From positions 1 to 64,000 of the forward strand of contig NZ_JAOWLC010000004.1 of assembly GCF_025751535.1 (NCBI RefSeq): a DNA stretch of 64,000 nucleotides. Direction: 5' to 3'. The notes beneath the pieces were generated by a model. It did not search any database and had not been told where the DNA came from. It saw only the letters and a program-made list of their open reading frames with translations. Made by a program: the position numbers and the translations under genes. This document shows positions 15,869-47,256 of this stretch, piece after piece. Numbering within the stretch: position 1 is the stretch's first letter; every line of letters begins with the position of its first letter. This DNA comes from Lentibacter sp. XHP0401 (GTDB lineage Bacteria; Pseudomonadota; Alphaproteobacteria; Rhodobacterales; Rhodobacteraceae).

Positions 15869-16129
15869 CTATCCATATGGGACTGATGCGCTAACCGCCA
15901 CCCCGACGGCATCTTTGCTACGCGGCGAAGGACGCCGATTGCGACAGGTAGCACAGATCAAGGCTGCGGCACCCTGAAGCGGTATTGGTGCATCACAACG
16001 ACGACATTTGATGGTCCTTTGCAGAAACGCTTGAGCAAATTGGTATCGACAACTCGGGCAGCGTCCGGCTGCGGCACGTGGGATTGCAGATGTGCAAGAG
16101 GGGCAATTAAAAGGTAGGTGTAGGGTCAT
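15869..16129 (-). CDS. small double zinc-ribbon protein
   Basis: An 86-residue protein with two zinc-ribbon knuckle pairs: CPSC (residues 9-12) with CPSC (24-27), and CRRC (42-45) with CATC (59-62). The C-terminal 25 residues are basic and polar without structure. GGAGAG lies seven bases before the ATG, supporting expression. Function is unknown; such ribbons bind nucleic acid or proteins. It is followed upstream on the same strand by the Rnk-type gene at 16272-16706 after a 142-base gap containing a CCTCCCGGG-type hairpin (around 16181-16225). Confidence 0.6.
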   Translation of the reverse strand: MTLHLPFNCPSCTSAIPRAAAGRCPSCRYQFAQAFLQRTIKCRRCDAPIPLQGAAALICATCRNRRPSPRSKDAVGVAVSASVPYG

Positions 16130-16271: not shown

Positions 16272-16706
16272 TTAGGCATCCTGTAGCGCTTCGCGTTCAA
16301 AGGTGGCCACCTTAAGAACCTTCAACTCGCGTCGATGCCCGTCCCGCGTCTCCCAATGGAACACGGCATCCTCGGCCAGCCCGATTAGCGCGATCCCGAT
16401 GGGAGTGATAACTGAAATCCAGCCTTTGGATATATCTGCATCCTGAGGGATGACCAAAGTGATTGTGTGATCCTGTCCGGTCAGTTCATCGCGGTAGGTG
16501 ACCTCACGGCCGATATCGACGACGTCCGGGCGCAGTCGGGACTGGGACACAATACGCGCGCGACCAAGCTCTTCAACCAGCAGTTCGGCCAGGTCAGTGT
16601 TGCGGCGCATCAAGCCTTCGGCCAGCGCCTCCAACTCGGCTAAACGGTTGCTGCTCAACACGATCTTAGGGCGACGTGTTCTACGGGGTTTAGAGGGAGC
16701 TGACAT
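16272..16706 (-). CDS. rnk: Rnk/GreA-GreB-domain protein (nucleoside diphosphate kinase regulator family)
   Basis: A 144-residue protein with an Rnk-type N-terminal helical segment (LAELEALAEGLMRR to LLVEELGRARIV, residues 22-55) and a GreA/GreB-like C-terminal domain (VTYRDELTGQDHTITLVIP, ISVITPIGIALIGL, residues 73-118). Rnk binds RNA polymerase near the secondary channel but lacks the long coiled coil of GreA. ATG 16706 is chosen because AAAAGGAAA precedes it; the longer frame to 16820 overlaps the upstream gene. It lies 61 bases after another GreA-domain gene, with which it is probably cotranscribed from the promoter near 17363-17390. The leader of that unit is shared in form with the one ahead of the paralogue at 22590. 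Confidence 0.85.
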   Translation of the reverse strand: MSAPSKPRRTRRPKIVLSSNRLAELEALAEGLMRRNTDLAELLVEELGRARIVSQSRLRPDVVDIGREVTYRDELTGQDHTITLVIPQDADISKGWISVITPIGIALIGLAEDAVFHWETRDGHRRELKVLKVATFEREALQDA

Positions 16707-16767: not shown

Positions 16768-17217
16768 TTAAGTGCCGCTGACGTCCAGCACGACGAGGGT
16801 TTCGATCCACCCGTCGTCACGCAGCAGAGGCGCTCTTTGCATCTTGCGCATACCCAACATTGTCGCTCCCAGAAATGAGGTAACTGGAATGCAGCCGGCT
16901 TTATTACCGGGCACCAAGGTTAGTATACCGCTGCGAGCATTGCCGCCGCTGATCATGTATTTAATACGGCGCCCAGCCATCACGAGGCTTGCGGGTGTAG
17001 GTTCGGGAGAGTTTCGGGCCAAACGCAGTTTGTGGCGTAGAAAGCCTTCGATCAACGTCGGGTTTGGGCATTCCGCTGTTAGGTCGAGGCTAAGAAGCCG
17101 TTCAATACCGATCCGATCGGCTTGGGTGAGTTGAAAACGGCCCTTTAGCGGCGAGCATTTATGAGATGGCTGATATGGGCTGTCAGTTAGCAGATGCGCA
17201 GGATTGATGATGTGCAT
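16768..17217 (-). CDS. divergent Rnk-like protein with GreA/GreB-like C-terminal domain
   Basis: A 149-residue protein. The N-terminal helical part (LTQADRIGIERLLSL) is only loosely like Rnk, but the C-terminal half keeps the GreA-type strand pattern (VMAGRRIKYMISGG, LTLVPGN, IPVTSFLGATMLGMRK). GGGGGA precedes the ATG. It is the first gene after the structured leader at 17256-17360 and probably forms a two-gene operon with the Rnk at 16272. It is more diverged than the other two paralogues in the window and may bind polymerase differently or another partner. Confidence 0.65.
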   Translation of the reverse strand: MHIINPAHLLTDSPYQPSHKCSPLKGRFQLTQADRIGIERLLSLDLTAECPNPTLIEGFLRHKLRLARNSPEPTPASLVMAGRRIKYMISGGNARSGILTLVPGNKAGCIPVTSFLGATMLGMRKMQRAPLLRDDGWIETLVVLDVSGT

Positions 17218-17255
17218 GGTGATCCCCCAGAAAGGAAAGAAGTCTCAATGAACGA

Positions 17256-17360
17256 TTTGAGAGGCCCCGGGGAAAAAGAAACGCCTAAGCGTTCGCCACC
17301 CGGGGAAGGGGGCGGTTTAGAAGCAGAAACCGAAAATGATTCTCATGCATAACCATGAGG
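17256..17360 (-). ncRNA. structured 5' leader RNA, copy A (ahead of Rnk-like operon)
   Basis: On the minus strand the transcript would read CTAAACCGCCC (17320-17310) then TTCCCCGGGTGGC, an outer stem CCCCGG/CCGGGG (17265-17270 with 17300-17305) enclosing an inner stem AACGC/GCGTT with loop TTAG and a following TCTTTTT. A 26-base block (17295-17320) matches 24 of 26 positions of a block ahead of the second Rnk gene (23237-23262), and an AATGAT motif follows at the same distance. The inner stems differ in sequence yet both pair. It may be an attenuator, riboswitch-like leader or a released small RNA. Confidence 0.6.
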
Positions 17361-17362
17361 CA

Positions 17363-17390
17363 AGCCTAGCCTTTAGTGGGGAGCTGTCAA
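17363..17390 (-). promoter_or_regulatory. sigma70-type promoter of the Rnk-like operon
   Basis: Minus strand: TTGACA (17390-17385), 16 bases, TAGGCT (17368-17363). It is placed directly ahead of leader copy A, matching the promoter ahead of copy B. A CTCATG/CATGAG inverted repeat overlapping the start of the transcript (about 17341-17358), next to AATGATTCTCATG, could be an operator. Confidence 0.55.
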
Positions 17391-17590
17391 TACAACTTGA
17401 AGTATGCGGTGGCTGTGTGGTGATTGTAGTATGAAGCCATGAAGTCACGCGCGTCTTTTCGACCACATGCGGAGGCATCCAATTGCCGCAAAGTCCGCAT
17501 GGCGACTAACGGGACTGAAGTCATCTGCCAAACAAACTAGTGTCATGCGATAGAGGATTTTCTGAAGGTAAATGGTGAGTGACGCTACTA

Positions 17591-17668
17591 TTAGCGAGCA
17601 TTGCCGATCTTCTTGGCGTGTTGGAGCACTCTAAGTTTGAGTTGAATGTCGCGTTCTTGGTTTGTCAT
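17591..17668 (-). pseudogene. integrase/transposase N-terminal stub
   Basis: A 25-codon frame, MTNQERDIQLKLRVLQHAKK then IGNAR, behind a strong GGAGGAGG site. It matches the start of IS481/IS3-like integrases that begin MTNxERDIQxKLRVLxxA before a HTH. A stop follows at once and the rest is missing, so this is a truncated relic. The remaining 17400-17886 region holds nothing else I can identify. Confidence 0.5.
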
Positions 17669-17886
17669 GAATACCTCCTCCATCCCAAATCAGGGAAATT
17701 ACAGGAAGTGTCCGAGAGTCCGTACATATCTACAGGCAGGAGTAAGTGTGGCTAGCGATGGTTTGCCGCCGTGGTTTGTTTAAACGAGGCATAAGAGATT
17801 AGGTTGACAGCTCATTTATCGAATGTCACCGGAGGAGGATGCATGACCATGGAGCCAACCTGTCAAATTCATCAACCAGTACCAGA

Positions 17887-18291
17887 TTAGTTTTTATCCA
17901 AATCAATTTCGCCTTTATAAAGGCTGCGTAATGTTGCGACCATAGTTTCGAACGATTGATCCAATGCTATATTTGTGTTGTCGGTCGAGGAAATATAAAT
18001 GGATTTCCCCCTCGGTTCGCGCCTCAGAAAGCCGCTTTCCACCAAGGTGCCGATTTTCCTATGAAGGGTGCTTATGGGAAGACCGAGAACTTCAGACAGA
18101 GCGGAAAGGTCATACAGTTTCCCCTGTAGCTTGCCCTGCACCACTGTTCGAATAATCAGGCAATCAACGGGCTTGCCCCACATTCCGGTTTCCATTGCAT
18201 AAAAACGGTTGAGGCATTCTATGATTTGCGCTTGCACAACAGTCCGTATGGCCGCGGATTGTTGATTACTCTCTTCCTCATCATTCACCAT
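17887..18291 (-). CDS. MarR-like winged-helix transcriptional regulator
   Basis: A 134-residue regulator. A helical N-terminus (CLNRFYAMETGMWGK) precedes a winged helix-turn-helix at about residues 58-98 (YDLSALSEVLGLPISTLHRKIGTLVESGFLRREPRG), then a C-terminal helix that probably dimerises. The wing is rich in basic residues. It is divergent from the SQR-like operon beginning at 18463 and is its likely regulator, probably through TTTCCA-GTT-TGGAAA at 18330. No cysteine pair typical of persulfide sensors is obvious: a single Cys lies in the dimerisation region (about residue 27) and another near 44. Confidence 0.75.
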   Translation of the reverse strand: MVNDEEESNQQSAAIRTVVQAQIIECLNRFYAMETGMWGKPVDCLIIRTVVQGKLQGKLYDLSALSEVLGLPISTLHRKIGTLVESGFLRREPRGKSIYISSTDNTNIALDQSFETMVATLRSLYKGEIDLDKN

Positions 18292-18329
18292 TTCTTTGCG
18301 CTCCCTTTAAATGCCTGCACGACGCTGAG

Positions 18330-18344
18330 TTTCCAGTTTGGAAA
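18330..18344. promoter_or_regulatory. palindromic operator between regulator and SQR-like operon
   Basis: TTTCCA-GTT-TGGAAA, a perfect 15-base inverted repeat, lies 39 bases from the MarR-like start and 119 bases from the SQR-like start. Its size and place suit a winged-helix dimer. Confidence 0.45.
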
Positions 18345-18462
18345 GGTCCGTGCTTGGCAGTTGGAACCATTTGCTCACAACCTCTCACTGAATTCAAACT
18401 ACACCGATAGGAAGCGCTTCGTGCCTTCTCGTTGGGGTCTCGGAAAAGGAGGAGGGGTAATA

Positions 18463-19653
18463 ATGCAAAAACACATACTCGTCGTGGGCGGTGGTATTGG
18501 CGGAACAATGACGGCGAACGGCATTGTCAGCAAGATGTATCCGGAGGTTTCGTCCAGAAAGGTCAAGGTAACTCTATTGTCGGACAGCCCGTGGCACTAC
18601 TACAAACCCGCGTTTATGTATGTCGCTTTCGATATGTTCTTTGAGGGCGAACTGCGCCGCAAACAACATTCTCTTTTGCGACCTGAGATCGACTTCCAGG
18701 TCGACAAGGTGACGTCCTTCGACTTTGCTGGTTCAAGTGTGAAGACCGCCAGCGGCAAGACGATCGGATACGACTATATTGTGGTTTCGACCGGTTGTCT
18801 GCCTGCTCCTGAGCGGATCGAGGGCTTGAAAGAAGCGGGGGACTATTTCTACCAATACGATCCTGCGCGCCAGTTGTCGGAGAAGTTGCGCAAGCTGGAG
18901 AAGGGGCGCGTTTTCATCACGGTTAACTTTCCGGAAACACCAAACGTTCCACATCAATGTGGTATCGCACCAATGGAAACCACGCTGATGCTGGACGAGT
19001 ATTTGCGCCGTAAGGGCGTTCGCGATCAAGTCGAAATTGTATATACATACCCGACTGTCTCTCAGCTTTTGCGCAATTGCTTGTTCCTGCAGGAAGAGGT
19101 CTGTTCGGTCCTGCCTCCCATATTCGAAGAACGTGGTATCAAGTATCAGAACGGTTTCACTTTGGCTAAAGTCGATGCCGAGAAAAAGATCGCAATTTCG
19201 GCTGAAGGCGAAGAGCAGGACTTTGACATTCTCATGTCCACTCCACCTATTCGCGCAGTCGATGCGGTCCTACAAAGCGGGGTTTCGCAAGCGCCCAACA
19301 ACGAGGGTTGGTTGCCTACTGATCGGGAAACCCTGCAACTTGACGGGTATCCTAACGCCTACATAATGGGCGATACAGTTGATCTTCCGATCTCGAAGGC
19401 GGGCGGATCGTGCCACAATCAATCTCCGGTCATTGCCAATAACATTGCGGGGGACATCCGTTTGGGCCGAACCGTCGATGCCTATGACGGTAAGGTTCAA
19501 GCTATTGCCCAGATGGGCCTCGAAGCGGGGATGCCACTTTGGTATGACTATGATGAAGACGTACACCCGACCCCTCCTACAAAGGTCGGCGGCCTTATGC
19601 GCAAGGCTTTTAACCGCGGGATATATTGGTCTGTAGCGCGCGGTATCGTCTAA
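18463..19653 (+). CDS. sulfide:quinone oxidoreductase-like flavoprotein
   Basis: A 396-residue FAD protein. The dinucleotide motif GGGIGG (residues 9-14) and the second FAD signature YIMGDTVDLP (300-309) frame the fold. Three Cys sit where sulfide:quinone oxidoreductases have their redox triad: C112 (STGCLPAP), C166 (PHQCGIAPME) and C317 (GGSCHNQSP). The C-terminal amphipathic end (RKAFNRGIYW) could dock to the membrane. It would oxidise sulfide or another reduced sulfur compound and pass electrons to quinone. ATG 18463 is preferred over upstream codons because AGGAGGAGG precedes it. It heads an operon with a DUF1641 protein and a SufU-like protein. The substrate could also be a thiol or persulfide. 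Confidence 0.82.
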   Translation: MQKHILVVGGGIGGTMTANGIVSKMYPEVSSRKVKVTLLSDSPWHYYKPAFMYVAFDMFFEGELRRKQHSLLRPEIDFQVDKVTSFDFAGSSVKTASGKTIGYDYIVVSTGCLPAPERIEGLKEAGDYFYQYDPARQLSEKLRKLEKGRVFITVNFPETPNVPHQCGIAPMETTLMLDEYLRRKGVRDQVEIVYTYPTVSQLLRNCLFLQEEVCSVLPPIFEERGIKYQNGFTLAKVDAEKKIAISAEGEEQDFDILMSTPPIRAVDAVLQSGVSQAPNNEGWLPTDRETLQLDGYPNAYIMGDTVDLPISKAGGSCHNQSPVIANNIAGDIRLGRTVDAYDGKVQAIAQMGLEAGMPLWYDYDEDVHPTPPTKVGGLMRKAFNRGIYWSVARGIV

Positions 19654-19682
19654 AATCTCACATTTCCAGCAAGGAGGCCGAA

Positions 19683-20114
19683 ATGGCAAACCCTACCAAA
19701 ACCGGAGCGGACGCGCCGCTTCTCGAACGGCTCAACCAAGAGAGTGCATTCGCCGATGAAGCAACGGAAGCCGGATTAATTGATCTTGCAAACAAAGTTG
19801 CGCCATTAATTCAGGGCCGTCGTTTCCATAATGTCGTAGATTTACTCTCACTCGCAGCCGACGGTGTCGACATGGCTGACGATGCCATGATCCAAAAAAT
19901 GATGTCTGGGTATGAGGATTTGGTTAGCAACGCTTGGATGCTTTCTAATGCCGCCCGCTATGCGACAAACGAGGCAACCCGGAAGCCAGTGCCTTCCCGC
20001 CTTGGGCTGTTACGTGCTACCGGAGACGAAGATGTGCGCCGCGGGCTGCATTTTGCGATTCAATTCCTCGCTGTGCTAGGGCGTCAGGCTGCACGCGGTG
20101 CGGAAGAAGGCTGA
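19683..20114 (+). CDS. DUF1641 protein, partner of the SQR-like flavoprotein
   Basis: A 143-residue soluble, mostly helical protein with the DUF1641 pattern (LLERLNQESAFADEATEAGL, then LLSLAADGVDMADDAMIQKM). Proteins of this family are repeatedly found beside SQR-like or formate-dehydrogenase-type redox proteins, but their biochemical role is not established. GGAGG precedes the start. It stands 29 bases after the flavoprotein and two bases before the SufU-like gene, so all three are cotranscribed. Confidence 0.75.
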   Translation: MANPTKTGADAPLLERLNQESAFADEATEAGLIDLANKVAPLIQGRRFHNVVDLLSLAADGVDMADDAMIQKMMSGYEDLVSNAWMLSNAARYATNEATRKPVPSRLGLLRATGDEDVRRGLHFAIQFLAVLGRQAARGAEEG

Positions 20115-20116
20115 GT

Positions 20117-20557
20117 ATGCCTCATGCCGACGTGGCACTGGCCAAACTTTATCAACCACGCATCCGGGAACATGCGGCCCGGGTGCGTAGGGACAAGAGG
20201 CTGGATAAACCTGATGTGACGGTAACCTGCCGTAGCCCGGTTTGCGGTAGTGTGATGACACTGGATCTGATTATACATGACGGGATCCTAGCGAAAATAG
20301 GTTGGAAGGGACGTGCATGCACCCTTGGAATGGCCTCATTGAGTATAGTCACATGCGCTGGCATCGGACAAACAGAGAAAGAGATTTTTGAGGTAGGTCG
20401 TAGGCTTTCGGATTTATTGAACGGAAAGAAAAATGACTTCCCTCAGGCTTGGGCTGATCTCTCTATATTTTGTGCTGCGCAAGAATTCCCAATGCGATTT
20501 GGATCTATCGAGCTTCCCTTTGACGCTATCGCACAAGCATATGAAAAGGTTAGGTAG
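20117..20557 (+). CDS. SufU/IscU-like protein with an incomplete cluster site
   Basis: A 146-residue protein with the IscU/SufU/NifU-N fold. It keeps C43 (SPVCGSV) and C68 (KGRACTLGMASLS), but the Asp usually two residues after the first Cys is Ser, and the third ligand Cys, normally in the R-x-C-A-x-L-x-W region, is replaced (MRFGSIELPF, Phe at residue 128). C38, C80 and C119 are extra. A normal [2Fe-2S] scaffold or zinc site is therefore unlikely; it might instead carry persulfide sulfur for the SQR-like enzyme. That is inference from operon context only. Confidence 0.7.
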   Translation: MPHADVALAKLYQPRIREHAARVRRDKRLDKPDVTVTCRSPVCGSVMTLDLIIHDGILAKIGWKGRACTLGMASLSIVTCAGIGQTEKEIFEVGRRLSDLLNGKKNDFPQAWADLSIFCAAQEFPMRFGSIELPFDAIAQAYEKVR

Positions 20558-20631
20558 TTCGTCCCTAAAGGATCGTCCACTCCTCAGTGGTTACGATGAG
20601 CCAAGAACACTATCCTAGCAAATACCGCTAT

Positions 20632-20662
20632 TTGGACCCATAAGCGCTGACGTCAGACATGC
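20632..20662. repeat. dispersed intergenic repeat, copy b
   Basis: TTGGACCCATAAGCGCTGAC followed by GTCAGACATGCTGC. It resembles copy a at 50-77 and copy c at 28797. It lies between the SufU-like gene and the rsuA-type gene. Unknown nature. Confidence 0.45.
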
Positions 20663-20713
20663 TGCTCGAACTCACAGGTTGTGCTGGTGTACATCCCTTT
20701 TTACTTTGGTCTG

Positions 20714-21448
20714 CTACTGAAAGATCGAGGCAATTTCTTCTTTGCTCAGCAGCCGCCACTCGCCAGGAACCATGCTGTCAGGTAGTGATAGGCCACCTAG
20801 ACGTTCTCGGTGCAGTCCCTCAACGTGGTTTCCGGTGGCCGCAAACATACGACGCACTTGATGATATCTTCCCTCGGTAACATTGAGCAGAACCTCGGTC
20901 TCCGAAACTATTTCCATTTCGGCCGGTGCTAGCGGCTTATTTTCGTTTTCCAACAGCAGGTGACCTGAATTAAACAGCTCGTCTTCGGTGCCATTTAGCG
21001 GGCGGGCCAGTTTGACCCGATAGGTTTTTTTTACGTAGCGCTTAGGGCTGATGACGTGGTGCAACAAATCACCATCATCTGTCAGCAACAGTAGACCCGT
21101 GGTCTGCTTGTCCAAACGGCCGATAGTGGAGATCGAAGGGTTTCGCGATCTCCAGCGCTTGGGAAGCATGCTATAAACTAGAGCACCTTCATCGTTGTGA
21201 GAGCAGGTCATGCCTAAAGGTTTATTCAAAAGTATAACTATACCCGCGACGGGATCGAGAGCCTCGCCGTCGATCTTCATGCGGTGCGCTAAATCTGGGG
21301 TGATAGGGATACGTTTGGCGACATCGCGAAGCACAGCAAAGTCTAGAGTGATACGACCGGCTCTTACCATTTTTTCAATTTCTTTGCGCGAGCCATAGCC
21401 CATAGAAGAGAGGAGCTTGTCGACGCGGGAAGTGTGTGTCCTAGCCAT
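20714..21448 (-). CDS. rsuA: RsuA/RluB-family 16S rRNA pseudouridine synthase
   Basis: A 244-residue enzyme. An S4 RNA-binding domain (residues 8-55, VDKLLSSMGYGSRKEIEKMV) is followed by the catalytic domain with the invariant GRLDKQTTGLLLLT (residues 109-122; Asp112 is the catalytic residue) and a C-terminal GRYHQVRRMFAATGNHV. The length and the single S4 domain fit RsuA, which modifies U516 of 16S rRNA, although RluE-like specificity cannot be excluded. It is a single gene. Confidence 0.85.
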   Translation of the reverse strand: MARTHTSRVDKLLSSMGYGSRKEIEKMVRAGRITLDFAVLRDVAKRIPITPDLAHRMKIDGEALDPVAGIVILLNKPLGMTCSHNDEGALVYSMLPKRWRSRNPSISTIGRLDKQTTGLLLLTDDGDLLHHVISPKRYVKKTYRVKLARPLNGTEDELFNSGHLLLENENKPLAPAEMEIVSETEVLLNVTEGRYHQVRRMFAATGNHVEGLHRERLGGLSLPDSMVPGEWRLLSKEEIASIFQ

Positions 21449-21588
21449 TTTTCGGTTCCCAAATTGGAGGTCTGATACCTTAAAGTGCCGAATGCCCGTC
21501 TAAGGTTTTTTGGTAATTTATTTAGCCATCTATGGTCACCTGCGAGACGGGTATGCGGTCATACGAAGGGTCGTATATAGACGGCTTC

Positions 21589-22500
21589 CTATTGAGTGGG
21601 CCGCGCACCCTCCAAGGCTAAAGGTTTGGTTCGGACGAGTTCGAGACGTCGATGCGGCACGTAGTAATCTGCCTCCCGCAAAGCTTCATCGACAAGGCTG
21701 TAGACCTCGTCGCGACAGTCAATGTCACGATCAAAACGCGACAGCCAGAAACGAAGTGCATAGGTAATGCCGCCTTCCTCATAGGCAAGAACACGCACGT
21801 CAGGAGCCGGATCCTGTTGGATCAGCTTGGCGTTCATAGCTGCCTTCAACATCACGTCTCGTGCGCGTCCGACCGGCATTGTGTGATCGAGCATGATAGC
21901 GACTTGCGCGCGGTATTGTGGTCTGGGCGCTGAGTAGTTGGTAATCCTCTGACGCGCGATTTGGCTGTTTGGCAGGATCATGTAGGTTGAATCCCGCGTC
22001 AAAATGCGCGTGGTGCGCCAGCCGATTTCGATAACCTTACCCCGTGCCAGGCCGTCAATGTCAATCCAGTCACCAATCCGAAATGGGCCTTCAACTCCAA
22101 GCGCGATACCTGACAGTGTGTCGGCGACCACATTTCGGATTGCAAAGCCAAGCATCGCAAGGATCAGGCCGGATCCAGCCAACGCCCCTATAGCGCCCTG
22201 CCCAAGAAACAGTGAGGCCGTCGCTGCAAAAGCGATGAAGAACAACAACGCAGCTATCAAGTCACGTAACAATCGCGGATAGGGACGGCTTCGGGTCGTG
22301 GCCCTGTCCAAGGCCATCGACGCCAAACGACTGACAAGCCATGCGACGGCAAAATAGGCCAGAGCAGTGATGCCGAGAGTAAACGTTTTATACTCGCCGA
22401 ACAGCGCGGTGATGTGTGACGAAAACAGGATCAGTCCCACGCTTAAGATTGCGAAAACCGACGGCCAAACGAGGCGTCGGGCATGTTGTTTGCTAGTCAT
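21589..22500 (-). CDS. MscS-family mechanosensitive ion channel
   Basis: A 303-residue inner-membrane protein. Hydrophobic segments at about residues 12-32, 38-58, 82-102 and 106-128; the last contains the pore helix pattern GAIGALAGSGLILAMLGFAI. The beta domain follows with PFRIGDWIDIDGLARGKVIE and the PNSQIARQRITNYS loop, both hallmarks of MscS. It opens on membrane tension to release solutes during osmotic downshock. The Rnk-type gene at 22590-23021 lies 89 bases upstream on the same strand, so the two could share a transcript. Confidence 0.88.
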   Translation of the reverse strand: MTSKQHARRLVWPSVFAILSVGLILFSSHITALFGEYKTFTLGITALAYFAVAWLVSRLASMALDRATTRSRPYPRLLRDLIAALLFFIAFAATASLFLGQGAIGALAGSGLILAMLGFAIRNVVADTLSGIALGVEGPFRIGDWIDIDGLARGKVIEIGWRTTRILTRDSTYMILPNSQIARQRITNYSAPRPQYRAQVAIMLDHTMPVGRARDVMLKAAMNAKLIQQDPAPDVRVLAYEEGGITYALRFWLSRFDRDIDCRDEVYSLVDEALREADYYVPHRRLELVRTKPLALEGARPTQ

Positions 22501-22589
22501 TTCAGGCGTCTCCTATGTGACTTTGGATTGTTCATGTCTTCAGGTGAGGCTGCACGTCCTGTCTCATTGTTTTCCTGATTTTCTGTGTG

Positions 22590-23021
22590 TTACGAGTTTG
22601 CCGAGGGCTGTATCACCTCAAGGACCGTCAACATGCGACGCTGGTCGTCTCGTGTGTCCCAGTAAAAACTGGCCCCTTCCGATAACCCCAGTAGTGCGAC
22701 ACCGATGGGTGTCATGACCGAAACACGAAGTTGCGTAATATCGGCCTCTTCGGGATAGACTAGAGATACAGTTTTTTCCTGCCCGGTTGCTTCGTCGCGA
22801 TAGGTCACGGTGCTGCCCATCGTTACCACATTGTCGCGAACCTTGGTCGAAGCCACGATACGGGCACGGCCGATCTCTTCGAGCAGGCGATCTGCCAGTA
22901 CTGGCTGGCGTCGCATCATGCTGTCGGCCAGTCCCTCAAGGTGGGTGAGGTCATCGGCATTGATGACAACTTTTGGGTTGCGCTTGGTTCGTTTTTTGGC
23001 GGCTGTGGGTAAAGTCGACAT
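22590..23021 (-). CDS. rnk: Rnk-family RNA polymerase-binding protein
   Basis: A 143-residue protein colinear with E. coli Rnk. N-terminal helices (DLTHLEGLADSMMRRQPVLA to LLEEIGRARIV) precede the GreA/GreB-like domain (VTYRDEATGQEKTVSLVYP, VSVMTPIGVALLGLSEG, FYWDTRDDQRRMLTVLEV). It is clearly paralogous to the gene at 16272 (both keep RARIV, TPIG-ALxGL and WxTRD). The transcript probably starts near 23300, about 280 bases upstream, so a long structured leader precedes the start codon. AAGGAGCC lies before the ATG. Confidence 0.87.
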   Translation of the reverse strand: MSTLPTAAKKRTKRNPKVVINADDLTHLEGLADSMMRRQPVLADRLLEEIGRARIVASTKVRDNVVTMGSTVTYRDEATGQEKTVSLVYPEEADITQLRVSVMTPIGVALLGLSEGASFYWDTRDDQRRMLTVLEVIQPSANS

Positions 23022-23189
23022 GGATAGGCTCCTTATGATGCAAGTCTAGTTCAGGAATGGTCGAAAGGGTTTGCAAGAACGAGGCGCGCTAGCGGGCGAC
23101 AATAGCCTGCCGCTAGTGGCTGCCTCAGGGATAGATGGCGTCAAACGTGATTTAACACTGGCGGATTAATCGCCAGAACCACGCTTCAA

Positions 23190-23300
23190 GACTGTGAGGA
23201 GACCCCGGAAGGCATGCCAGACGCGGACGCGTCTAGGCCACCCGGGGAAACGGGCGGTTTAGCAGTCGGAATAGGAAATGATCTACATGAACCTTCATGA
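23190..23300 (-). ncRNA. structured 5' leader RNA, copy B (ahead of rnk)
   Basis: Minus-strand transcript with the same order as copy A: a CATGAA/TTCATG hairpin, AATGAT (opposite strand) at equal spacing, CTAAACCGCCCG, then TTTCCCCGGGTGGC. The outer stem CCCCGG/CCGGGG (23203-23208 with 23242-23247) encloses an inner perfect stem AGACGCG/CGCGTCT (23219-23234), different in sequence from copy A's inner stem but also paired. No U-run follows here, so this copy looks less like a terminator. Confidence 0.6.
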
Positions 23301-23305
23301 CAATA

Positions 23306-23334
23306 GAGCTAGGTATCCACTGCTCAATAGTCAA
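23306..23334 (-). promoter_or_regulatory. sigma70-type promoter of rnk leader B
   Basis: Minus strand: TTGACT (23334-23329), 17 bases, TAGCTC (23311-23306). Position relative to the leader matches that of copy A. Confidence 0.5.
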
Positions 23335-23717
23335 TCTCGCCAACGATAAGCAAATTTTACGCTGGTTTTTGTGACCTTTATGGCCCATTGACTGGCGCGT
23401 TTGTGCCGAAGGGTCACAGCCTGACGAAGCACGATTGAAAGCCCCGGTGCGGTGACCCATATGAGGAGTATGATGATGTTCAGCTTCCATATGAGGTTCC
23501 TGCTTTTCGCAGGAAATCGACTGAACCGCCGGTAGCCCCGGGCGGGGTAGCCACTTGTGCTGCTTCTCGCCTCGGGGTTTTCAAGATCGCTTTGATCTGT
23601 TCGAGACGACGGAGGTTTTTGCTCCGCCGGTTTCAAATTGCGGCCGACAGCATTTCGAAATCTGGCACAGCAGAGACCGACGTTACGGCTTCAGTAACCT
23701 TATATCTGGAGGATGGC
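23335..23717. other. non-coding stretch before the DUF1127 gene
   Basis: No gene that I can support. A hydrophobic minus-strand frame near 23340-23500 has no ribosome site or family motif. The promoter and leader of the DUF1127 gene should lie in the second half. Confidence 0.4.
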
Positions 23718-24035
23718 ATGCATCCCTTTTTGACACATCGAAACAATATGGCTCAGTTTCGCAACCAGGACGCTGCGAACAATAATAAAGATCCGTCGCG
23801 GCCTAGCATGTGGCGGCGCTGGCTGCGAGCAACGGTCAACAACTGGAAACGGCGCAAGATGGTTGCGGCGTTGCGGTCTATGGAAGACCACTTGCTTAAA
23901 GATATCGGCGTAGAGCGCGGTGACATCCAGCGGATTGTTGACGGGTTTGATGAGCGTGAGCTTGGCATGGTTCCGTTGGCAAGGTCGCCACGTGTTGTCA
24001 GTGTGAGACCACAGGTTCTTAAGTTGACGGCATGA
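23718..24035 (+). CDS. DUF1127 small basic protein
   Basis: A 105-residue protein. The central stretch WRRWLRATVNNWKRRKMVAA followed by LRSMEDHLLKDIGVERGDIQ is the DUF1127 domain (about residues 32-72), an arginine-rich helix pair typical of alphaproteobacteria. In other species DUF1127 proteins affect RNA turnover and phosphate or stress responses; the role here is not known. ATG 23718 has CTGGAGGA upstream; ATG 23748 (MAQF) is an alternative. A perfect hairpin follows the gene at 24056. Confidence 0.75.
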   Translation: MHPFLTHRNNMAQFRNQDAANNNKDPSRPSMWRRWLRATVNNWKRRKMVAALRSMEDHLLKDIGVERGDIQRIVDGFDERELGMVPLARSPRVVSVRPQVLKLTA

Positions 24036-46874: not shown

Positions 46875-47121
46875 CTATGCGAAATTTGCTCTACAAATGA
46901 TGGTTTCACCGTGTTGACACATCAGCCGAGTAAGAGTCGTGAACATCCGGTTTCCGCCTTTGATGACCTGAGCGAAGCAAAAGACTTTACCGTACGTCAA
47001 AAATGGAAGTCTCGTTGTTCCCGAGTCAACAGAGGCTATGTCGATAGCAGAGGTCTGTTTTCGATACTTCGTTTCTACTTAATTTTGGTGATTGAACTCC
47101 CTTCAGGTGAACTGTAGCGTC

Positions 47122-47205
47122 GTCTTCGTCAGGGGCGCCGCAAGGCTGAGATGTACCCTTTGAACCTGAACCAGATAATGCTGGCGGAGGGAGGCAGGAT
47201 CACAG
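47122..47205 (+). promoter_or_regulatory. TPP riboswitch (THI element)
   Basis: Contains the conserved thi-box parts in order: GGGGCGCC, CTGAGATGTACCCTTTGAAC, CCTGAACCAGATAATG and CTGGCGGAGGGAG. It lies 52 bases upstream of thiM. In such riboswitches bound thiamin pyrophosphate blocks ribosome access or causes termination. The thiM ribosome site (AAGGAAAGG) lies just downstream, so control at translation is likely. Confidence 0.95.
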
Positions 47206-47256
47206 CTTGTGGGTATGTGTGGCTTCTTTCTGTCTATTTTCAGAAGGAAAGGCCCG

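Follow-up and report, generated by a model that had tools for sequence, protein, structure and literature searches.

Candidate ribosome-dependent attenuators with predicted leaderless leader peptides ahead of Gre/Rnk and DUF1127 genes in Rhodobacteraceae

Why do two rnk-type transcription units of one bacterium begin with almost the same leader? The question arises in Lentibacter sp. XHP0401, where the window that we analysed (the 64,000 nucleotides (nt) at positions 1 to 64,000 of contig NZ_JAOWLC010000004.1) carries on its minus strand the blocks CTAAACCGCCCCCTTCCCCGGGTGGC (copy A, 17320-17295) and CTAAACCGCCCGTTTCCCCGGGTGGC (copy B, 23262-23237), both read from the window sequence. A preliminary description of the same sequence had proposed a pair of structured leader RNAs ahead of rnk-type genes, and the features on which it was built are all present. 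The blocks agree at 24 of 26 bases, with 2 differences; the AATGAT motif, seen as minus-strand ATCATT, lies 14 bases ahead of each block; the promoters TTGACA...TAGGCT (A) and TTGACT...TAGCTC (B) are there; and the outer CCCCGGG/CCCGGGG stem and both differing inner stems fold. A search for the 22-base core CTAAACCGCCCNNTTCCCCGGG finds exactly two copies in the window and, with up to three mismatches allowed, still just two in the 3.7 Mb genome, while window shuffles give a mean of 0.01 occurrences, so that chance is negligible. What stands of the earlier interpretation is a selected leader of common build; what does not is a plain RNA fold. We read the elements as an undescribed family of ribosome-dependent attenuators that would sense translation status.

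A repeated block at the end of a short reading frame

Further copies were collected with a core-pattern search of 147 relatives, which revealed them in other genera of Rhodobacteraceae, and with a covariance model (CM) seeded with ten copies and run on 395 sampled genomes of the family. The CM matched in 33 of these genomes, with up to five matches per genome that are frequently clustered; the three window copies (A, B and a copy C described below) served, with others, as seeds for the models by which they are scored. A TTGAC box stands at a set distance in all core-pattern copies except one chance match and one degenerate copy. Copies occur in many named genera, with a patchy distribution across Rhodobacteraceae, the core pattern being absent from six congeneric genomes. 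The covariance search that had been suggested as a check thus found the leader elsewhere, with some compensatory changes. The earlier doubt about a recent duplication was also well placed: because A and B fall in two subtypes spread over many genera, their divergence is old, and we reject recent duplication. Searching the class as a whole with R1 and R2 turned up a single convincing relative beyond the family (L232, MMIKAQHWLIASAGRLLNRSPPRGR followed by a stop codon), and the remaining few matches look like chance.

The first reading had missed that the conserved block is coding. In all copies, a short upstream open reading frame (uORF) continues into a GC-rich hairpin, and its C-terminal portion is what is conserved, FRFLLLNRP in type I, which includes copies A and B. 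The frame reads MVMHENHFRFLLLNRPLPRVANA in copy A (17285..17356, minus strand), MKVHVDHFLFRLLNRPFPRVA in copy B (23233..23298, minus) and, for example outside the window, MVMHENLFRFLLLNRPGPRAVCA in L008, each closed by a stop codon. Weak opposite-strand matches near strong ones led to type II, exemplified by MTMFSLHTRFLLNAGNTLNRR with its stop codon adjoining CCCCGGGCGG, in which the peptide ends ..LLNRR. The window holds one such element, copy C (~23435-23577, plus strand), with the uORF MMMFSFHMRFLLFAGNRLNRR (23470..23535, plus) and its stop; this third, related element ahead of a DUF1127 gene had likewise escaped notice. Two rarer types, III and IV, have peptides ending in QNRPLPGAV and LLNRSLPRAGGRMR. 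The ending FR-F-L-L..LNR(P/R) is common to otherwise differing peptides and lies at a fixed distance from the hairpin.

Codon changes follow this frame. Over type I codons 2-11, the ratio of non-synonymous to synonymous differences (pN/pS) is 0.47 in frame (bootstrap 0.41-0.54) versus 0.99 and 1.12 in the shifted frames; the subset of 36 sequences from the CM and core-pattern searches of family genomes only gives 0.42 versus 1.00 and 1.23. Type II yields 0.57 in frame versus 1.03 and 1.07 shifted, and the value for the 33 nt ahead of the ATG is 1.05. By this pattern of changes the uORFs are under protein-level selection, and the block once described as an RNA fold alone forms chiefly the tail of a leader-peptide frame. 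Behind the Leu-Asn-Arg (LNR) codons pN/pS is 1.2, and past LNR constraint acts on the RNA. The elements thus present a short upstream frame that is selected at the codon level and keeps its start, its stop and its place, as a leader-peptide attenuator would. Because the core pattern served to pick many of the copies, the core appears more invariant than in an unbiased set; it was therefore excluded from the codon test and examined on its own in CM hits, where the third bases of AAC (or ACC) and CGC, the Asn-Arg codons that form one stem arm, are invariant in 50 of 50. As the sequences are related, the p values of swap comparisons and Fisher tests serve as no more than a guide.

Two further observations concern codon choice. 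At type II codon 9, Arg is encoded by AGG in 50 of 54 sequences versus ~5% of Arg codons in the background, which yields a GAGG/AAGG-like stretch within the uORF. Leucine starvation read through rare codons was considered as a signal and found weak: CTT is enriched (0.39 vs 0.17) and CTA only slightly in type I.

Exclusive stems, promoters and downstream genes

Four regions of the leader can pair. Region 0 (CGGUUU, Arg-Phe codons) is able to pair with region 1 (GAACCG), region 1 (ACCGCCCG, Asn-Arg-Pro codons) with region 2 (CGGGCGGU), and region 2 (CCCCGGGyGGU) with region 3 (ACCnCCCGGGG). Region 2 takes part in both 1:2 and 2:3, and these two stems are mutually exclusive; both are conserved, and they overlap the reading frame or lie just behind it. 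On folding, the 2:3 hairpin of copy A (17265..17305, minus) pairs CCCCGGG (17305-17299) with CCCGGGG (17271-17265) around the inner stem AACGC/GCGTT, and that of copy B (23203..23247, minus) pairs CCCCGGG (23247-23241) with TCCGGGG (23209-23203) around AGACGCG/CGCGTCT and is directly followed by TCTCCTC (23202-23196, minus). In copy C the arms are CCCCGGGCGGG and GCCTCGGGG (23536..23577, plus), the first base directly following the uORF stop codon, and the uORF itself contains a hairpin, TTCCTGC/GCAGGAA.

Across type I copies, the seven outer positions of the 2:3 stem are paired in 97-100% of copies and most of its pairs in 96-100%, and one pair shows a C-G/G-C swap in 9 sequences. Counted by cell, pairing reaches 93% for 1:2 and 91% for 0:1 in type I, and the uORF hairpin of type II is 96% paired, three of its pairs showing changes in both arms; when the partner is slid as a control, these three stems give 13-60%. 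Since the 0:1 and 1:2 pairs hardly vary, theirs is conservation, not covariation. The Phe codon that faces GAA/AAA in the 0:1 stem is TTT rather than TTC by 67:8, whereas the Phe two codons upstream prefers TTC by 45:19 (p 2e-13).

Where the transcript begins can be predicted from the promoters, which were seen in logos aligned on the uORF ATG, a generic sigma70 scan having returned no promoter at its cut-offs. The type I logo (94 copies) reads TTGACA, 16-17 nt, TAnnnT, 6-7 nt, ATG, and the type II logo (55 copies) (C/A)TTGAAA, 16 nt, CCATAT, 7 nt, ATG; C stands at -1 in 77% and 90%, respectively. In the window this gives TTGACA (17390-17385), 16 nt, TAGGCT (17368-17363) and 6 nt to the ATG for copy A (17363..17390, minus), TTGACT (23334-23329), 17 nt, TAGCTC (23311-23306) and 7 nt for copy B (23306..23334, minus), and TTGAAA (23435-23440), 16 nt, CCATAT (23457-23462) and 7 nt for copy C (23435..23462, plus). 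Tetramers resembling a Shine-Dalgarno (SD) sequence precede the uORF in 3 of 94 type I and 5 of 55 type II copies. Because both promoter geometries, at usual spacing, place the start at or next to the AUG, transcription probably begins at or beside its A and the uORFs are probably leaderless. By their sequence, the promoter of the Gre/Rnk form appears sigma70-like and that of the DUF1127 form RpoH-like, the type II logo (C/A)TTGAAA-N16-CCATAT resembling the RpoH1 consensus CTTGAA-N15-16-CCTATAT (PMC4843759); rsp_0557, a DUF1127 gene of Rhodobacter sphaeroides, is RpoHI/RpoHII-dependent (PMC10673084).

The gene behind an element almost always belongs to the Gre/Rnk superfamily (types I, III and IV) or encodes a DUF1127 protein (type II). 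The former mostly start 112-114 nt past the Leu codon of LNR, the latter ~190 nt downstream. The usual type I operon runs gene 1, then rnk, as behind copy A, where the first gene (16768..17217, minus) encodes a separate 149-residue protein of predicted Gre/Rnk fold that Pfam does not recognise, and the recognisable rnk (Rnk_N plus a GreA_GreB C-terminal domain; 16272..16706, minus) comes second, a distinction not drawn before. Copy B lacks gene 1 and stands directly ahead of rnk (22590..23021, minus) and, downstream of it, an MscS-type mechanosensitive channel gene (21589..22500, minus). Behind copy C lies the DUF1127 gene (105 residues; 23718..24035, plus; PF06568, E 8.9e-9).

Among gene-1 homologues, 9 of 50 have a GreA_GreB Pfam match. 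The predicted structure of gene 1 (predicted local distance difference test score 84) matches GreA/GreB-family 2pn0 (E 2.1e-8) and also 3bmb (E 1.2e-6), listed as an RNA polymerase interacting protein, which we take to be E. coli Rnk. On this structural model, gene 1 is a Gre/Rnk-fold family mostly missed by Pfam. All strong gene-1 matches (E < 1e-40) in the sample examined fall in genomes that also carry the element according to the CM search. Six genomes have a weaker gene-1 match and no CM hit; two of them carry a diverged element, VRFRIFSGSLLTRTLPRAEAVAC followed by a stop codon, ahead of the homologue, and in the other four none was found with the pattern used. Plasmids of Loktanella, Defluviimonas, Sulfitobacter and Leisingera likewise carry related DNA or gene-1 homologues; on them, as far as an incomplete plasmid gene table goes, gene 1 is mostly called 'hypothetical protein' and the leader carries no annotation.

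Several side observations concern these loci. Several genomes (L254/L042 (G184), L267 and others) hold two to seven gene-1 copies clustered with divergent elements, which suggests repeated local duplication of the element-plus-gene unit. In G019, the near-identical type I elements L005/L074 and L009/L075 lie ~70 kb apart; a gene 1 frame follows L009 and was not found behind L005, which looks like a decayed copy. A zinc-ribbon-like small protein is encoded behind the rnk of unit A (15869-16129, minus), and comparable small frames follow rnk in other units. Elsewhere in the window, a thiamine pyrophosphate riboswitch (47121-47209, plus; 64 bits) is the sole Rfam match at gathering score.

Proposed mechanism and rival readings

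On balance, we think that each element is a ribosome-dependent attenuator with a leaderless leader peptide and mutually exclusive stems. The promoter would be set so that the mRNA begins at, or a nucleotide or two from, the AUG of a leader peptide of 16-24 codons that would start without an SD and whose conserved sequence ends in, or passes through, L-N-R-P or L-N-R-R. A ribosome on the LNR codons would cover region 1 and leave most of region 2 to pair with region 3, one at the stop codon would cover region 2, and one held slightly further upstream would let 1:2 form. The progress of the ribosome would then choose between 1:2 and 2:3, and the chosen fold would set gene expression. By analogy with duf1127_1 of Sinorhizobium meliloti, the signal may be impaired translation: a disturbance of translation (antibiotic, too few ribosomes or too little charged tRNA, stress) would be expected to switch the operons on, and the output would be RNA-polymerase secondary-channel factors (Gre/Rnk) and the DUF1127 protein.

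The readout would most likely be Rho-type premature termination, which would fit all copies; it has been proposed too for the duf1127_1 leader (PMC12218461). The preliminary description had taken the TCTTTTT behind the inner stem of copy A as a hint of attenuation. The build is indeed attenuation-like, but the U-run is not conserved: within 8 nt behind region 3, a TTTT is present in one type I copy out of 90 and in 11 of 59 type II copies. With a GC stem that as a rule lacks a U-run behind region 3, an intrinsic terminator is unlikely, and we rejected this reading.

Some results weigh against the attenuator as proposed. Stems 0:1 and 1:2 are almost invariant, conserved rather than covarying, and their sequence is also coding; nor did a comparison of codon usage make any amino acid clearly prominent as the sensed one. 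The remaining points concern initiation at the downstream gene and bear as well on a rival, rather unlikely to our mind, namely a translational switch only: the segment behind region 3 would mask the SD of gene 1, to be opened or closed by ribosome position without premature termination. This segment (UCUCCUC or CUUUCUC in type I) is complementary to GAGGAG or GGGAGA of its own operon and fits the SD of its own gene better than swapped ones (p 0.0008, uncorrected for ancestry), and the mostly constant distance of gene 1 from the core would suit such a switch. Masked folding, however, gave a simple SD-masking switch a small effect only, with SD exposure in type I of 0.21 free, 0.32 with the ribosome at LNR and 0.22 at the stop codon, and in type II, where the gene is further downstream, it left the SD without a link to region 3. 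Moreover, the gene start is well over 150 nt away in about ten type I copies, among them copy B, which means that SD masking cannot be general. For most type I copies, the attenuator that we prefer would gain an extra layer from the anti-SD segment behind region 3.

Could the peptide rather than the RNA be what holds the ribosome? In a nascent-peptide arrest, FRFLLLNR(P/R) would itself stall the ribosome on a small molecule or drug, as in a TnaC- or Erm-type leader, and the hairpins would only relay the event. Protein-level selection across the whole uORF upstream of the core and the shared ending at a fixed distance from the hairpin speak for it, but the core codons are fixed at the RNA level too, the peptides differ considerably between types and no arrest motif was recognised in them; we keep it as a possibility of the second rank. 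A short frame whose product is a small protein or a peptide acting in trans (or a leader that is a small RNA), merely sharing the operon promoter, strikes us as improbable. Conservation of the peptide would agree with it, and S. meliloti peTrpL does act in trans (PMC7298713), yet the fixed spacing of uORF, hairpin and gene, the RNA constraint within codons and the exclusive stems point to a role in cis, beside which an additional trans role could exist. Least credible, and by a long way, is a non-coding structured leader, whether it acts as a metabolite riboswitch or belongs to the gammaproteobacterial rnk_leader family, to which a relation had been raised: conserved stems ahead of rnk genes would suit it, but the in-frame selection on the uORF would not. 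Over the window, Rfam gave no family relevant to the elements at gathering scores and only weak unrelated matches up to E 10. The likeness to rnk_leader (RF01771) lies in the position ahead of rnk; its covariance model has no match in this genome, with a positive E. coli control, and we rejected this identity.

Comparison with known systems

No description of the leader was found in the literature, supplements and most subscription papers lying outside the search. Tentatively, one module, with sigma70-like promoters at Gre/Rnk operons and RpoH-like promoters at DUF1127 genes, may act across a regulon as a sensor of how efficiently leaderless mRNAs are translated and so couple the state of the ribosome to RNA-polymerase rescue factors. 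With these attenuators, a large and mostly marine family of bacteria would gain a group of unannotated regulatory peptides, translation status would be linked to RNA-polymerase secondary-channel factors, and a natural system would be at hand for testing leaderless initiation as a sensor.

Among known leaders, the uORFC-8-2 motif ahead of cysS is, like the present elements, a candidate for ribosome-mediated attenuation in Rhodobacterales; its tandem Cys codons and intrinsic terminator (PMC8632094) are not seen here. The leaderless trpL of S. meliloti (rnTrpL/peTrpL), in which the AUG is the 5' end of the mRNA and stems are mutually exclusive (PMC7298713), shares with our elements the exclusive stems and, as predicted here, a leader-peptide frame starting at the mRNA 5' end. 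It differs in having Trp codons and trpE(G) as its target, whereas our elements have no run of any one biosynthetic amino acid, no U-run terminator, and stress and RNA-polymerase-factor genes downstream.

The S. meliloti duf1127_1 leader is regulated by uORF attenuation without an intrinsic terminator, with Rho proposed, and is induced by tetracycline and chloramphenicol; its uORF has an SD, starts at about nt 31 of the transcript and encodes C, A and T at residues 11, 15 and 17, and synonymous changes showed that the RNA, not the peptide, matters (PMC12218461). A DUF1127 target, the lack of an intrinsic terminator and, as we propose, uORF-dependent attenuation are common to both. In contrast, type II copies as a rule lack an SD (the 5 of 55 with SD-like tetramers given above), the transcript is predicted to start at the AUG, and the peptide has residues other than those reported for duf1127_1, ends in LNRR or LNRP across the family and is under protein-level selection; the module is also common to Gre/Rnk operons. 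The elements would thus represent a second way, to all appearance independent, in which uORFs control DUF1127 genes.

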